From contig CANRLR010000013.1 of assembly GCA_947631505.1 (NCBI GenBank), forward strand, positions 1-64,000: a DNA stretch of 64,000 bases, in the 5' to 3' direction. Below, piece after piece: positions 34,735 to 63,645 of the stretch. The DNA is from an uncultured Lachnospiraceae bacterium. Lineage in GTDB: Bacteria > Bacillota > Clostridia > Lachnospirales > Lachnospiraceae. Each line of letters opens with the position of its first letter. Positions within the stretch are counted from its first letter, which is position 1. The notes under the pieces were generated by a model, which saw only the letters and a list, made by a program, of their open reading frames with translations, was not told the DNA's origin and did no database searches. A program made the translations under genes and the position numbers.

Positions 34735-34740
34735 TGCAGC

Positions 34741-34918
34741 TGTAAATTGAATTAATTTCGCTGTAAACATTTTCACTGAGGGCGGGGGCACAGACAGTGA
34801 CGATTCGTACACGCTTCCGCTTGGAAAAAGGCGTAACGGTACATAAGGCCGCAAAATACGCAGCCTAAGTACCGACGCCTTTTTAACAGTACTCATCCGT
34901 CACTGTCTGTGCCCCGCC
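34741..34918 (-). repeat. Structured palindromic element P4 with conserved tail
   Basis: A near-perfect outer stem of about 22 bp joins 34781-34802 and 34897-34918. Inside, on the minus strand, are GGCGT, a hairpin (GGTAC-AGGC/GCCT-GTACC), then TT, then ACGCC, and after about 10 nt AAGCGGAAGCG. This core order is the same as in the elements at 61759-62476. The flank at 34741-34780 (TTAATTTCGCTGTAAACATT, continuing to the stem) recurs almost unchanged at 61858-61892. Short frames through it are not believable genes. See the findings for covariation. Confidence 0.8.
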
Positions 34919-34966
34919 TTCTTCGATCCTGTTACCGCGTATTTAATTCTTCTTACAGTTATGAAC

Positions 34967-52045: not shown

Positions 52046-52065
52046 CCTGATAGTTCCTGTTCTAT

Positions 52066-52230
52066 GAGTAGCACTCCATCTTACAGATGACAGTCATATA
52101 GTTATTCACTATATGCCCAGAAGAAAAATATACAGGAATTTTTCCTCTTCGGCAGGCGTTCCTTTCAAAAGTCTTCCTCCATGCCTGTCATGTCCGACTT
52201 TTTACTGATAAAGCCCGCACCTCTACCTTC
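52066..52230 (-). ncRNA. Lysine riboswitch (L box)
   Basis: The minus-strand leader of dapA carries the conserved L-box blocks in order: GTAGAGGTGCGGGC, TATCAGTAAA, GGAAGACTTTTGAAAGGAAC, GCCTGCCGAAG, CTGGGC, ACTGTCATCTG and GATGGAGTGCTAC. Pairing of the 5' and 3' ends (AGAGGTGC with the GGAGTGCTA region) and the position before dapA agree with the family. It should turn off dapA and the downstream wall, replication and translation genes when lysine is plentiful, unless internal promoters exist. Confidence 0.93.
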
Positions 52231-52237
52231 ATATTCA

Positions 52238-59240: not shown

Positions 59241-61688
59241 TTATTCACTCAGCAGACGATTGACCAATTTTACCGCTTCCCTCGCATCAGCGGAATAACC
59301 ATCGGCTCCGATTTCATCCGCAAAGCTCTGAGTCACAACCGCACCGCCAATAATAATTTTCGCTGCTGCTCCCTGCTCTCTGGCAAGGTCGATCACCTGT
59401 TTCATCTCCATCATTGTCGTTGTCATAAGCGCGGATAATCCAATCACAGCGGCATTCGTTTCTTTCGCCTTATCGATAATCACTTGAGATTCCACATCTT
59501 TTCCCAGATCAATCACATCATAGCCGTAATTTTTTAACATAAGAACAACTAAGTTCTTTCCGATATCGTGAATATCCCCTTTGACGGTCGCCATGACAAT
59601 CGTTGCCAGCTTTTTATCTCCCCGTTCTTTCTCTAACAACGGTTCCAGACGGTTAATTGCTTTTTCCATTGTTTCTGCACTGGCTATCAGCTGTGGAAGA
59701 AAATATTTTTTCTGTTCAAATAGTTCTCCGACATAATTAATCGCAGGAATCAAATGGGTATCAATAATCTCTGCCGGATGCTTTCCGGCATCCAATTCCT
59801 TTTCCACCAATTCAAGAATATGTCCGTCCTTTCCCTTTACAACGGCTGCATATAGAGGATGTCCGTCTAATTCAGCCTCCGTCTGCTTCTGCACTGACTG
59901 GGTTATCGTTGCCTGAGAAACTCCATTTATATAACGGATATCAGCCTCCTCTTTATTTAACAGCAAATCGGAAGCCAATGCTGCATTTGTCAAAAGTGTC
60001 TGAGACGGATTCGCAATTGCCATCGTCAGTCCCTGCCCGATTGCCAGTGTTAAAAATGCCGTATTGACAAATACACGCTCCGGTAACCCAAAAGAAATGT
60101 TGGACAGCCCACATATTGTTGCAAGTTTCAATTCCTCTTTACAATACCGTATCGTCTCAAGAACTTCGAGAGCGGCTCTTTTATTGGCTCCGATTGTTGC
60201 TACCAGACCGTCTACCACAATGTCTTCTTCTGTCATTCCGTGGCGTTTTGCCTCCGCCAGTATGGTATGAATAATCTCCGTCTTTTCCTCCATGTCCTTT
60301 GGCAGTCCGGCATCTGATAATGGCAGAAGAATAAACATCGCACCATATTTTTTTGCCACTGGAATTAACTTTTCAAATTTTTCCGGTTCAAGAGATATGG
60401 AATTAATCAGTGCCCGTCCCGGATAGATTCGCAATGCACTCTCTACTACATCCACATAGCTGGAATCAATACTGAGGGGCACATCCACTGTCATCGTCAG
60501 TTCATAGATAGCCTTACACATCATTTCCTTTTCGTCAATACCGTTCATTCCCATATTGACATCTAAAATTCTGGCACCCTTCTCCACCTGCTCCTCTGCC
60601 ATGTCGCGGACCATATCCAGCCTGCCTTCTCTCAGCTCCGCCTGCAATGCTTTCTTTCCCGTTGGATTAATGCGTTCTCCTACAATCGTAAAGGCTCCGT
60701 CTAAATCAATGGCTGTCACATTTCTCTCTGTCGTAAGCCCTCTCAGCGGAGGATTTTGCAGTCTCTTATATGGTTTATCCCGTGTCACATTTTTTAACTG
60801 CCGAATGTGTTCCGGTGTCGTTCCACAACAGCCGCCTAACACAGTAGCCCCCAGATCGATCAGAGGAATCATACTTTCCGCAAAAGCTTCCGGTTCCATA
60901 TCATAAACCGTCACTCCATCCACTAGTGCCGGAAGACCTGCATTTGGCTTTACCACAATCGGAATATCAGCATACCTTGCCATGCTTTTTACTGCTTCTG
61001 CCATCTTATCCGGCCCGGTGGAGCAATTAATTCCTACCGCATCGGCTCCCATTGCCTGCAATACAATAAGAGCGGTCTCAGGACTTGTACCATATAAGGT
61101 TCTTCCATCCTCCTGATAAGTCAGTGTTACAAGAACCGGTAAATCACAAGTTTCTTTTACTGCCAGCAGAGCAGCACGGCATTCCTGTAAACTCATCATC
61201 GTCTCAATGGCAAAACCATCCACTCCTGCTGCTACGGACAGTTCGACCTGTTTTTTATATATATTAACTAATTCTTCAAAGGGAAGACTTCCGATCGGCT
61301 CTAACTGCACACCTGTCATAGAAATATCACCCAGCATATAAATGTCCCGTTCTGCCCCACTCTGTCGAATTGCTTCTTTCGTCAAACCGATTAATTCATA
61401 AATCAGTTCTTCTTGTTTCTCTTCCAGCCCATACTCTGCCAGCTTAATGCTGGTACTCGTAAAGGTCGGTGTATACAGTACGTCCGAACCGGCTGCAATA
61501 TATTGTTTCTGCAGCTCAATAAAAATATCGGAATGATTGACGATCCATTGTTCCGGACACTCCCCGCTCTTCATTCCCGCCTTCTGTAAATTAGAGCCGG
61601 TAGCTCCATCTAATATGACAAAACCGCGATTTAAAAATTCTCTGAAATCCACCTTAACTGCCTCGCTTTCTGAAAGGAAACAAACCAT
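59241..61688 (-). CDS. metH: Cobalamin-dependent methionine synthase, short form
   Basis: Transfers methyl from methyl-tetrahydrofolate to homocysteine through a corrinoid. Domains: homocysteine S-methyltransferase (about 10-300; zinc cysteines in GINCS and LGGCCGT), pterin-binding domain (about 320-590; GERINPTGKKALQ), cobalamin cap and Rossmann domain (about 610-815; the DIHDIGKN cobalt-ligand motif near 705). At 815 aa it lacks the C-terminal SAM-dependent reactivation domain of the E. coli enzyme (about 1,230 aa), so reactivation needs a separate protein. The start may be this ATG or a GTG 12 codons in, which is better placed from GAGG. It has its own promoter. Confidence 0.95.
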   Translation of the reverse strand: MVCFLSESEAVKVDFREFLNRGFVILDGATGSNLQKAGMKSGECPEQWIVNHSDIFIELQKQYIAAGSDVLYTPTFTSTSIKLAEYGLEEKQEELIYELIGLTKEAIRQSGAERDIYMLGDISMTGVQLEPIGSLPFEELVNIYKKQVELSVAAGVDGFAIETMMSLQECRAALLAVKETCDLPVLVTLTYQEDGRTLYGTSPETALIVLQAMGADAVGINCSTGPDKMAEAVKSMARYADIPIVVKPNAGLPALVDGVTVYDMEPEAFAESMIPLIDLGATVLGGCCGTTPEHIRQLKNVTRDKPYKRLQNPPLRGLTTERNVTAIDLDGAFTIVGERINPTGKKALQAELREGRLDMVRDMAEEQVEKGARILDVNMGMNGIDEKEMMCKAIYELTMTVDVPLSIDSSYVDVVESALRIYPGRALINSISLEPEKFEKLIPVAKKYGAMFILLPLSDAGLPKDMEEKTEIIHTILAEAKRHGMTEEDIVVDGLVATIGANKRAALEVLETIRYCKEELKLATICGLSNISFGLPERVFVNTAFLTLAIGQGLTMAIANPSQTLLTNAALASDLLLNKEEADIRYINGVSQATITQSVQKQTEAELDGHPLYAAVVKGKDGHILELVEKELDAGKHPAEIIDTHLIPAINYVGELFEQKKYFLPQLIASAETMEKAINRLEPLLEKERGDKKLATIVMATVKGDIHDIGKNLVVLMLKNYGYDVIDLGKDVESQVIIDKAKETNAAVIGLSALMTTTMMEMKQVIDLAREQGAAAKIIIGGAVVTQSFADEIGADGYSADAREAVKLVNRLLSE

Positions 61689-61758: not shown

Positions 61759-61852
61759 TCAGGCTCCGCATTTCATGATAAAAGTTTGCTCGTATGGGCA
61801 CTTTCGTTAAATAAGTACGTAAATCTTTTTCATTGAAATGCTGGAGTTCTGA
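61759..61852 (-). repeat. Structured palindromic element P3 (central hairpin missing)
   Basis: On the minus strand the element opens TCAGAACTCCAGCATTTC and closes GAAATGCGGAGCCTGA, giving an imperfect outer stem of about 25 bp. The interior reads TACGTACTTATTTAACGAAA followed by GTGCCCATACGAGC, matching element P2 (62311-62476) with two or three differences. The GCGT-hairpin part present in P1, P2 and P4 is absent, so this copy is internally deleted. Confidence 0.75.
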
Positions 61853-61857
61853 AAAAA

Positions 61858-61990
61858 TTAATTTCGCTGTAAGCATTTTCACCGAAGGCGGGGTGCATAT
61901 TTTAGAAATCCCGGTCTGTCTTTCCATTCATCCGCTCAATCCCGCTCCGCTTCTTGGCTTACAGGCATTTCCTTTTCTTTAATTTCCTCG
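61858..61990 (-). repeat. Truncated structured element P5 and conserved tail
   Basis: The plus-strand segment 61858-61892 (ATTAATTTCGCTGTAAGCAT onward to GGCGGGG) repeats 34751-34786 with only a few changes. On the minus strand it is preceded by AAGAAGCGGAGCGGGATT, resembling the AAGCGGAAGCG core of P4, but no 5' stem partner for GACAGACCGGGATTTC was found. It appears to be the 3' half of another family member. A frame of 65 codons across it (61730-61927) is not credible as a gene. Confidence 0.55.
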
Positions 61991-62050
61991 CCACCCTTGG
62001 TTTTGCATTTTGTGCCGTGTATTCGTTGGCACTTTTTTAATTTCCCATAT

Positions 62051-62183
62051 TTCACACAGAAACAAAACAATGAGAACAGTATTTCAATTGCGTCACTAAG
62101 TGGTGTGCGTGGTCAGCACACCCTTAGTGCTACGTAATTGATTAAGCGGGAGCGGCTGTTCGAGTGTTTTGCTTCTGTGTGAA
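62051..62183 (+). repeat. Structured palindromic element P1
   Basis: Outer arms 62051-62079 and 62156-62183 (TTCACACAGAA and TTCTGTGTGAA at the ends) pair over about 26 positions. Inside, TTGCGT pairs with ACGTAA. They enclose a strong hairpin CACTAAG-GGTGTGC/GCACACC-CTTAGTG (62094-62129) and the unpaired dinucleotide CT. A 3' asymmetric loop GATTAAGCGGGAGCG follows. The order matches P2 and P4 although the paired bases differ. Confidence 0.8.
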
Positions 62184-62310
62184 TTACTGTGCAATTACAG
62201 ATGTGCCTACTTTACCAAACACAAACCTTTTTCTTTGTCTTGCCATACAAATCCAGATAGATTTCTTAGAGATTGTGTACATTTTCATTGACAAGGGGAC
62301 TGGTATCTTT
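62184..62310. other. Spacer between structured elements
   Basis: AT-rich sequence without an intact gene. On the minus strand a 20-codon frame (MARQRKRFVFGKVGTS and four more residues) ends just at P1; it has no convincing ribosome site. Nothing else recognised. Confidence 0.4.
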
Positions 62311-62476
62311 TCAGGATTCCAGCCTCTGTAATAAGAAAAGAATTGCTTGGCATGGGGTTATAAGTGCGTCGGTATGAGGCATCCGTACTTTGGATGCCCA
62401 TACCGCTACGTACTTATTTAACGGAAGTGCCCATGCGAGCAAACTTTTCTTATTACAGAGGCGAACGTGAACCTGA
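62311..62476 (+). repeat. Structured palindromic element P2
   Basis: The best-preserved copy, forming an almost continuous hairpin. Ends TCAGG/CCTGA; perfect 18-bp arms CCTCTGTAATAAGAAAAG (62323-62340) and their complement (62444-62461); then TTGCT-GGCATGGG (62343-62357) with CCCATGC-GAGCAA; AGTGCGT with ACGTACT; and the terminal hairpin CGGTATG-GGCATCC/GGATGCC-CATACCG. The 3' side has the extra unpaired TATTTAACGGAAGT. It lies just beyond the 3' end of the aminotransferase gene, on the opposite strand. Confidence 0.85.
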
Positions 62477-62508
62477 AAAAACACCCCTTGCCAACGAAAA
62501 TAATTCCC

Positions 62509-63645
62509 TTATTGTTCCCGTAATGCCCTCTGAAATTCAACTGCCATATCACACAGACATTGAAATCCCAAATCCTTTAATGTCTTTGAAAGTGCCTTTA
62601 GCATCTCCGTCACATCTTCTGCATTCGCATTATTGCCCATATGTCCTAACCGGATTACTTTTCCCGCCAACACATCAAAACAGCCGGAAATGAGAACATT
62701 GTACTTTTCTTTCATTGTATCGATAATTGCCGTGTCGGTCAGTCCCTCCGGCACATTGATTACAGTAACGGTTGAGGCATCGCCATAATCTAAATATAAA
62801 GAAAGACCTGCTGCCGTCACTGCTTCCCGTACCGCAGCAGCAATTTTGTGGTGCCGTTCCACCCGTCCGGTGTCTTCTTTCACCAGCCGTACCGCCTCTG
62901 CCAATCCATAAATATCACTGATCGACATCGTATAAGGAAACCATTTGTTTCTATAATAATCTTTAAAGGCCAGCAGATTACAGTAAAAGGAAGCAATCGG
63001 TGCTTTCCGGTGTTCCATGACAGCAAAAGCATCCTGACTGACACTGACAAAAGCAAGTCCCGGCGGGGCGGAAAGTGCTTTTTGCGAACCGCCGCAAATA
63101 ATATCAATCTTCCAGTCATCCACCTTTACCTCTTCCCCGAACATTGCTGCCACCGAATCCACTACAGTCAGTATGCCATATTGTTTAAGAAGGGGACAAA
63201 TTGCTGCTATATCATTCCGTACACCGCTTGGGGTATCACAATGAACCACCGTGGCATACTTGAAGTCATGGTCCCTCTCCAAAAATGCGGCCAGCTGCTC
63301 CACATCCACCGGCCGGTGGTAGTCCACGGTATAGCATACCGGTGTACCGCCATAGAGAGAAACAAAGTCAGCAAAGCCCTTTCCAAAAATGCCATTATCA
63401 ATGACTAACACCCGGTCTCCCGGCTCCGTCAAGGAAGCACAGGCCGCCTCCAGTGCAAGGATTCCCTCGCCGCACAAAATATAGACCTCATTCTTTGTTC
63501 CCAGCAGATTGCCGATTTCACCACAAAGACTGTGATATTGCTCGCAAAAATCTGTGTCTACATCAGGATTTCCAAAAGCAAGACTTCTCGCTTTCATTAC
63601 AGAGGGAGCTACCATCGTCGGTCCCGGTGTCATCATTTTATACAT
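62509..63645 (-). CDS. Class V aminotransferase (alanine-glyoxylate/serine-pyruvate type)
   Basis: PLP-dependent aminotransferase. N-terminal TPGPT motif, GEGILALEAACASL near 59-72, VDSVAAMFGE near 162-171 and the PLP-binding lysine Lys189 in GGSQKALSAPPG are characteristic. The 378 aa length is usual. The C-terminal half contains the conserved arginine in IRLGHMGNNA. Possible substrates include alanine, serine, glyoxylate or 2-aminoethylphosphonate. GGGAGG precedes the ATG, which overlaps the stop of the upstream ECF S-component gene by 8 bp, so the two are coupled. Confidence 0.9.
   Translation of the reverse strand: MYKMMTPGPTMVAPSVMKARSLAFGNPDVDTDFCEQYHSLCGEIGNLLGTKNEVYILCGEGILALEAACASLTEPGDRVLVIDNGIFGKGFADFVSLYGGTPVCYTVDYHRPVDVEQLAAFLERDHDFKYATVVHCDTPSGVRNDIAAICPLLKQYGILTVVDSVAAMFGEEVKVDDWKIDIICGGSQKALSAPPGLAFVSVSQDAFAVMEHRKAPIASFYCNLLAFKDYYRNKWFPYTMSISDIYGLAEAVRLVKEDTGRVERHHKIAAAVREAVTAAGLSLYLDYGDASTVTVINVPEGLTDTAIIDTMKEKYNVLISGCFDVLAGKVIRLGHMGNNANAEDVTEMLKALSKTLKDLGFQCLCDMAVEFQRALREQ

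Follow-up and report, generated by a model that had tools for sequence, protein, structure and literature searches.

A conserved folded core in miniature palindromic elements of Lachnospiraceae, some of which carry ISLre2-type ends

Introduction

Bacterial MITEs and palindromic repeats include the ERIC/RU, REP/REPIN and GTAG- and CGTC-tagged REP classes. Integron attC sites, which invite comparison because the arms of the elements described below vary with pairing kept, have terminal RYYYAAC/GTTRRRY boxes and an integrase. GNRA loops and tandem G.A pairs also form in DNA. To our knowledge, a strongly covarying, RNA-like internal domain common to several transposase systems is not an established feature of bacterial MITEs. 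REPs are 20-40 bp long with an unpaired tag, and those of the CGTC type have stems of 8-9 bp (PMC3733652). PMC3942029 gives the specificity of p-MULT 3 elements as insertion with the -35 box 16 bp from IR-right, in an orientation set by unequal repeats, and describes circular forms through which p-MULT elements pass.

Here we describe elements from a 64,000-nucleotide stretch of DNA (the window) of contig CANRLR010000013.1 in the uncultured Lachnospiraceae assembly GCA_947631505.1. The elements appear MITE-like, are about 100-250 bp long and have one folded core in common, and they resemble bacterial MITEs and palindromic intergenic repeats in being short, intergenic, multi-copy, palindromic and non-autonomous. 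They differ from REPs in their much longer arms, in the pairing of CGT with ACG, and in having a bulge and an internal GNRA mini-hairpin that are conserved across families. An assignment to the CGTC-tagged REPs, which PMC3733652 defines by an unpaired CGTC tag beside a stem of 8-9 bp, was rejected because CGT pairs with ACG in both of our alignments, A3 and A4. With the structured RNAs of Rfam the elements share covarying helices, a GNRA loop and tandem G.A pairs, but no Rfam family matches over a core of these elements. One conserved fold that reaches tens of copies per genome in common gut bacteria and has no Rfam match is unusual.

Results

The original prediction, made on the window, had described four elements of one architecture: P1, P2 and P3, clustered between two genes, and P4, which lies 27 kb away (Table 1).

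Table 1. Positions in the window of the elements, their cores and other features
Feature	Position	Strand	Remarks
Family A element (P1)	62008..62226	+	219 bp; degenerate ends TTTTGTGCC ... AAACACAAAC; boundaries by best match
P1 structured core	62066..62168	+	R1 match, 104.5 bits; P1 is in the R1 training set
P1 GNRA mini-hairpin plus neighbours	62144..62154	+	loop GGGA
Family B element (P2)	62309..62481	+	near-palindrome; ends TTTTCAGG / CCTGAAAAAA; boundaries approximate
P2 structured core	62342..62443	+	R1 match, 111 bits; P2 is in the training set
P3	61754..61857	-	family B copy with a deletion; apical hairpin and 5' strand of the core missing
Family C (P4 type) right-end fragment, adjoining P3	61856..61893	-	sequence match
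Family C element (P4)	34740..34958	-	near-palindrome; boundaries approximate
P4 structured core	34800..34900	-	R1 match, 54.5 bits; family C left out of R1
Flanking gene, putative metH	59241..61688	-	name from the original prediction
Flanking gene, putative aminotransferase	62509..63645	-	name from the original prediction
Lysine riboswitch	52061-52233	-	126.4 bits, Rfam search

P1, P2 and P4 proved to be real and as described: their folds beat 200 of 200 dinucleotide shuffles (z of -8.9, -10.7 and -11.8, respectively), and all three were recovered on the predicted strands when the window was searched with the covariance model R1. The same architecture had been over-read into P3, which lacks the 5' strand of the core as well as the apical hairpin and was not found by R1; P3 is 91% identical to P2 over 47 nt, and its single-strand fold has a z of -6.2 against dinucleotide shuffles. 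Up to an E-value of 10 the window held no R1 match beyond P1, P2, P4 and the antisense of P2 (20.8 bits). The motif WARCGGRAGYG was observed five times in the window compared with 0.35 expected; three of the sites are those of P1, P2 and P4, and the other two overlap each other inside a gene. The gap between the flanking genes is 820 bp in the window, compared with ~10-145 bp in nine of the ten relatives in which the matches to the two flanking genes share a contig, and ~2.5 kb in the tenth (G006). The cluster could be the product of three insertions and one fragment piled up between the two genes.

The fold common to P1, P2 and P4 comprises a stem, a tandem G.A, a junction with a GNRA mini-hairpin of two base pairs, a helix with a two-base bulge and then an apical hairpin. 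We drew up this structure manually on seven sequences, all from family A or B, in which 54 cells showed change on both sides of a pair compared with 22 in shuffles, and built R1 from it with family C left out. R1 found the held-out family C at 54.5 bits (E 5e-10) and 51.3 bits (E 4e-9), i.e. the covariance-model check proposed with the original prediction, run from the families of P1 and P2, recovered P4. In alignment A3, whose 45 distinct rows were picked by R1 score and which leans towards the structure because it was fitted to the model, both-sided change was present in 34 of 36 pairs, with 478 both-sided cells compared with 125 after shuffling and 32-85 in slid controls. A refitted model, R2, was based on 87 matches, most of them from loci found by sequence pattern (the refit drew on 98 sources, including 80 of the listed genome_contigs loci, of which there are at least 119), and its alignment contained 922 both-sided cells compared with 282 after shuffling.

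What had been taken for a CGGRAGYG loop is actually a mini-hairpin, R-C-GNRA-G-Y. GNRA is present in 44 of the 45 distinct A3 rows, a figure that stems from A3 because the pattern scan demands RRYGNRARYG and GNRA conservation in A4 is thus partly imposed. The stems of the mini-hairpin in A3 are mostly GC/GC, AC/GU or GU/AC, with two wobble forms in addition. In 27 of the 45 rows (by position) the outer helix is closed by GA facing GA. If selection acts on the fold of one strand, G.U should exceed A.C; in the core the two stand at 68 vs 13 in A3 and 89 vs 28 in A4, in counts for which a model-fitted alignment leans somewhat to G.U. Together with the covariation and the mini-hairpin, this excess supports, for the core, the earlier reading of a probable folded RNA or single-stranded DNA. 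A subtype, seen at ~18784-18885 of L329 (G274:C8) and in L340 (G431), has an apical stem that starts with CCCCAC instead of CGGT, and G274 also has four pairs of R2 matches, each pair lying within ~200 bp.

At gathering thresholds, the Rfam search of the window returned only the lysine riboswitch, elsewhere in the window. Three loci searched up to an E-value of 5 gave no match, and 16 loci searched up to an E-value of 1 gave five matches, none of them over a core. The literature search returned no published named family for the core, and the earlier statement that it is not a named family stands for Rfam 15 and for the literature searched.

The window's own genome is rich in copies. The 761-bp gap region gave 68 DNA matches in it, and R1 gave 27, which we sorted by eye into family A (that of P1, 19 copies), family B (that of P2, 5 copies plus a core-deleted copy) and family C (that of P4, 2 copies); one more match, on contig C10 (41.4 bits), is unlike all three. 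The 19 copies of family A resemble one another and are near-palindromes of ~219 bp, P1 being one of them and 18 having been aligned beside it, and family C has, besides its two cores, further core-less pieces. A stretch shared ahead of the left end of family C at first resembled the end of a gene, but the sequences upstream of it differ. One interval (L120, G000:C15, 994-5530) is bounded by two core-less copies ~4.5 kb apart, with family A/B-type ends facing inward, and contains two genes that by eye resemble ABC transporters.

Among 61 genomes, R1 matched 16 and none of the 24 that come from other families of the order; the 16 belong to one genus, that of the window, of which 37 genomes were searched with the window's own included. 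With R2, 64 of the 392 order genomes gave a match; they represent 31 of 173 genera, and every one of them falls in Lachnospiraceae, the window's family. The genome counts are lower bounds because copies known from the sequence pattern in GAM79 and Butyrivibrio M55 escaped the whole-genome R1 search. A scan of genome_contigs for the pattern returned at least 119 stretches; among the matches listed, ~94 were labelled Lachnospiraceae or its genera, and the rest Clostridiales, Clostridium and similar, with a few metagenome bins carrying the unconfirmed labels Gastranaerophilales, Bacteroides and Methanoregula. The Methanoregula match and one 'Clostridia' match look like chance. The core fold has so far been found only in Lachnospiraceae. 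We also considered a signal from phages, including single-stranded DNA phages, prompted by short 'Bacteriophage sp.' and IMG/VR matches, and dropped it: four of the five IMG/VR matches lie in ORFs and give no R1 match at an E-value of 0.1, the fifth (L243) matching R1. A plasmid search found nothing. Three fecal sequences labelled Bacteriophage sp. (L368, L369 and L370; MT836938, MT837495 and MT838392) have ORF translations that look bacterial by eye.

The sequence GTTTGTGTCAA is the end of P1's family A and of relatives of P2 (B-type), and a match to a known transposon-end family, which the original prediction had named as a refutation, was thus found in part, these families ending in an ISLre2-type repeat. 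In the relative G005, this end adjoins a gene for an ISLre2-family transposase of 494 aa (NF033529, 228.9 bits, cut-off 200); the element has ACTGTCGTT on both sides as a 9-bp duplication, and its far end matches the near end at just 16 of 23 bases. An ISLre2 gene over the cut-off was present in 5 of 39 genomes of the genus, and the genome of the window had none.

In family A, the right end lay 39 bp (11 copies) or 40 bp (one copy) upstream of a -10 box in 12 of the 13 copies that had no more than 3 mismatches in that end (five of 18 with 4 mismatches were excluded, and C38:1077, one of the 19 copies, was left out), compared with 8 of 1040 other positions as the background for a -10-like hexamer at that distance. 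The exception was P1 itself (L064, 3 mismatches). The gene beyond the right end had the same orientation as the core in 16 of 17 copies. The distance was first noticed on the family A copies and was then met in other junctions, i.e. in 10 of 13 other GTTTGTGTCAAG junctions of the genus (13 scanned of the 42 matches listed) and in all six of the 12 B-type copies that had a recognised end (6 of 7 ends), one of these being in the window's genome. P1 and P2 themselves showed neither this promoter distance nor an ISLre2-type end, P2 and P3 had no GTTTGTGTCAA repeat at their ends, and in each of 29 copies, with boundaries as taken, the 9 bp on the two sides differed at 4 or more positions. P1's family and the B-type relatives share with ISLre2 / TnGBS elements (p-MULT 3, Mutator superfamily) an end that bounds an ISLre2 gene. 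The insertion site is shared as well: the -10 box lies 39-40 bp away and the -35 box, given a 17-bp spacer, 16 bp away (PMC3942029), with mostly one orientation used. They differ in having no transposase gene, in an interior that is a conserved fold, and in a length of ~219 bp rather than ~1.7 kb. From this anatomy we infer that P1's family was moved by an ISLre2-type transposase.

Other elements with the core have other ends. A second group ends in GGYNNTTGCRAAM and is mostly 201-208 bp long, with duplications of 9-11 bp in 10 of 23 distinct elements compared with 1 of 506 in the control; copies in G335 have the ends GTGACAAAAATCTATA. No fixed promoter distance was found for the copies in G398, G329 and G335. 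Because the same core lies inside elements with unrelated ends and duplication lengths, the core does not appear to be tied to ISLre2, or to any one transposase. A search of the collected loci for a transposase belonging to the GGYNNTTGCRAAM ends gave no pair of such ends more than 700 bp apart. A linked autonomous gene was rejected: among 124 loci no gene family held a fixed place beside the core, the two largest protein clusters touching 16 and 14 loci at scattered distances. One insertion is present in G274 and absent in the sister species G431. The earlier suggestion of a mobile non-autonomous element is well supported by copy number, terminal repeats, the fixed promoter distance, the duplications in some groups and this presence/absence case. 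In G274, a second palindromic repeat, approximately GGGGACAGTCCCC or a close variant, adjoins several elements (L309, L311 and L313).

With respect to genes, a cis-regulatory RNA of fixed orientation was rejected, as the named loci showed no strand bias: where the neighbouring genes are in tandem, the core was on the same strand in 25 and on the opposite strand in 28. Only 17 of 121 pattern matches lay inside an ORF call of at least 100 aa, most of these being short ORFs. Two probable chance matches (L172 and L222) are kept among the 121 in the strand-bias count and are dropped from the gene-end counts and the arm mismatch counts below.

The outer arms behaved differently from the core. In an alignment with symmetric scoring, G.U vs A.C in the arms was 167:124 in 109 named copies, 29:30 in 30 from genus relatives and 13:17 in 18 from the window's genome, and by genome it ranged from 10:27 (G335) and 7:11 (G103) to 15:11 (G329), 9:3 (G274), 12:6 (G410) and 40:20 (G398), a mixed picture. 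For the counts that follow, RNAalifold selected the pairs from the very sequences being counted, a procedure that leans towards paired cells. Family A has 18 pair columns that vary on one side only and 5 that are compensated, and in G274 compensation is seen in 18 of the 20 pair columns that vary, with 0 of 312 cells unpaired. Across four orthologous copies of G274 and G431, 217 of 238 pairs are unchanged, 10 show single and 11 double changes, and none is broken. A single element, with hardly any change in its core, accounts for 10 of the 11 double changes; of the 11 pairs that changed at that locus, 10 did so on both sides, and five of these 10 are not simple transition pairs. The arms of L359 have, by eye and outside the counted pairs, one T.T and one A.C.

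Arms derived from the target, i.e. flanks copied into inverted arms at insertion, were rejected on the basis of this G274/G431 ortholog, which has the same core and the same site with arms that are different and still paired; the arms must, at least there, have changed after insertion. The original prediction had taken compensatory change to imply selection on the fold, and for the outer arms this does not hold without qualification, as mismatches there are nearly strand-symmetric and half of the double changes at the one orthologous locus are not simple transition pairs, which is what palindrome correction of the DNA would produce. Since an excess of G.U over A.C is weak or absent in the arms, arm covariation may in part be an effect of the DNA palindrome. 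We infer strand-specific selection on the core, with arms kept complementary at least partly at the DNA level in some lineages.

Discussion

At the level of sequence, the copies combine a conserved fold with strand-specific features, a high copy number and outer ends that differ by lineage. We consider it probable that they are Lachnospiraceae-wide non-autonomous mobile elements with a folded core, moved in trans by an ISLre2-type transposase and carrying an RNA passenger. The families with ISLre2-type ends would have been placed upstream of promoters, in a fixed orientation, by a transposase of the ISLre2 family (p-MULT 3) supplied in trans. The core would be a passenger module, most likely an RNA, made by read-through from neighbouring genes and folding at once; it might bind a host protein or shield both the element and the transcripts next to it. 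Palindrome correction at the DNA level may be part of what keeps the outer arms complementary. As to the function of the core, the folded RNA passenger is the reading we favour, followed by a single-stranded DNA signal and then by no function.

The second of these readings, which we regard as rather unlikely, is that the core acts as a folded DNA strand recognised in replication or in a circular transposition intermediate, e.g. as a primer start or recombination site. GNRA and tandem G.A, which form in DNA, would suit it, as would the absence of strand bias against tandem neighbours and the position of family A upstream of promoters, where the downstream gene's transcript from that promoter would not contain the element. 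So would the circular forms of p-MULT elements (PMC3942029). However, the core recurs in elements with unrelated ends and so is not tied to one transposase, the plasmid search was empty, and the phage-labelled matches look bacterial by eye. The elements might also be ordinary MITE palindromes without function, in which template switching between the arms copies mutations across. The nearly strand-symmetric arm mismatches, the double changes concentrated at one orthologous locus and the compensated columns of G274 are consistent with such copying, but it leaves unexplained the GNRA mini-hairpin (which is local and not formed between the arms), the conserved unpaired bases and the excess of G.U in the core, and families A and G410, which vary mostly on one side, argue against constant correction; we think this explanation unlikely.

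It is also improbable, in our view, that the elements are host-domesticated 3'-end or insulator elements, i.e. hairpins that resemble terminators or stabilise mRNA and that selection on the neighbouring genes maintains locus by locus. The orthologous copies of G274 and G431 do keep their fold, and within 60 nt of 19 copies from the genus and from G274/G431 lie 16 of 23 gene 3' ends compared with 5 of 15 gene 5' ends. In the larger set of 70 named elements, however, tandem copies are closer to the upstream stop in 25 cases and to the downstream start in 24, there is no orientation bias, and family A sits at promoters instead. Returning to the mobile element with an RNA passenger, it is possible, and we propose it tentatively, that the elements represent an undescribed class of selfish structured module, in which one RNA-like (or single-stranded DNA) fold rides in miniature elements of unrelated transposases, with strand-specific selection on the core and arms rewritten in step at the DNA level.

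The elements provide a natural test of how much of the covariation in a palindrome stems from selection and how much from copying between the arms, a question of importance to RNA searches that rely on covariation. They also suggest that miniature ISLre2-type elements target promoters when they insert, and such insertion could alter the regions upstream of many promoters at once. In G013 we noted two solo palindromes of 29 bp, GTTTGTGTCAAGTAAACGTTGACACAAAC and a variant (L251, 183-211, and L261, 3411-3439), each of which looks like a pair of ISLre2-type ends that has lost what lay between them; they still lie 39 bp from a -10 box. A separate locus of the same genome (L090, 1-1142, minus strand, G013:C26) has an IS110-type transposase gene ~360 bp from a B-type element.
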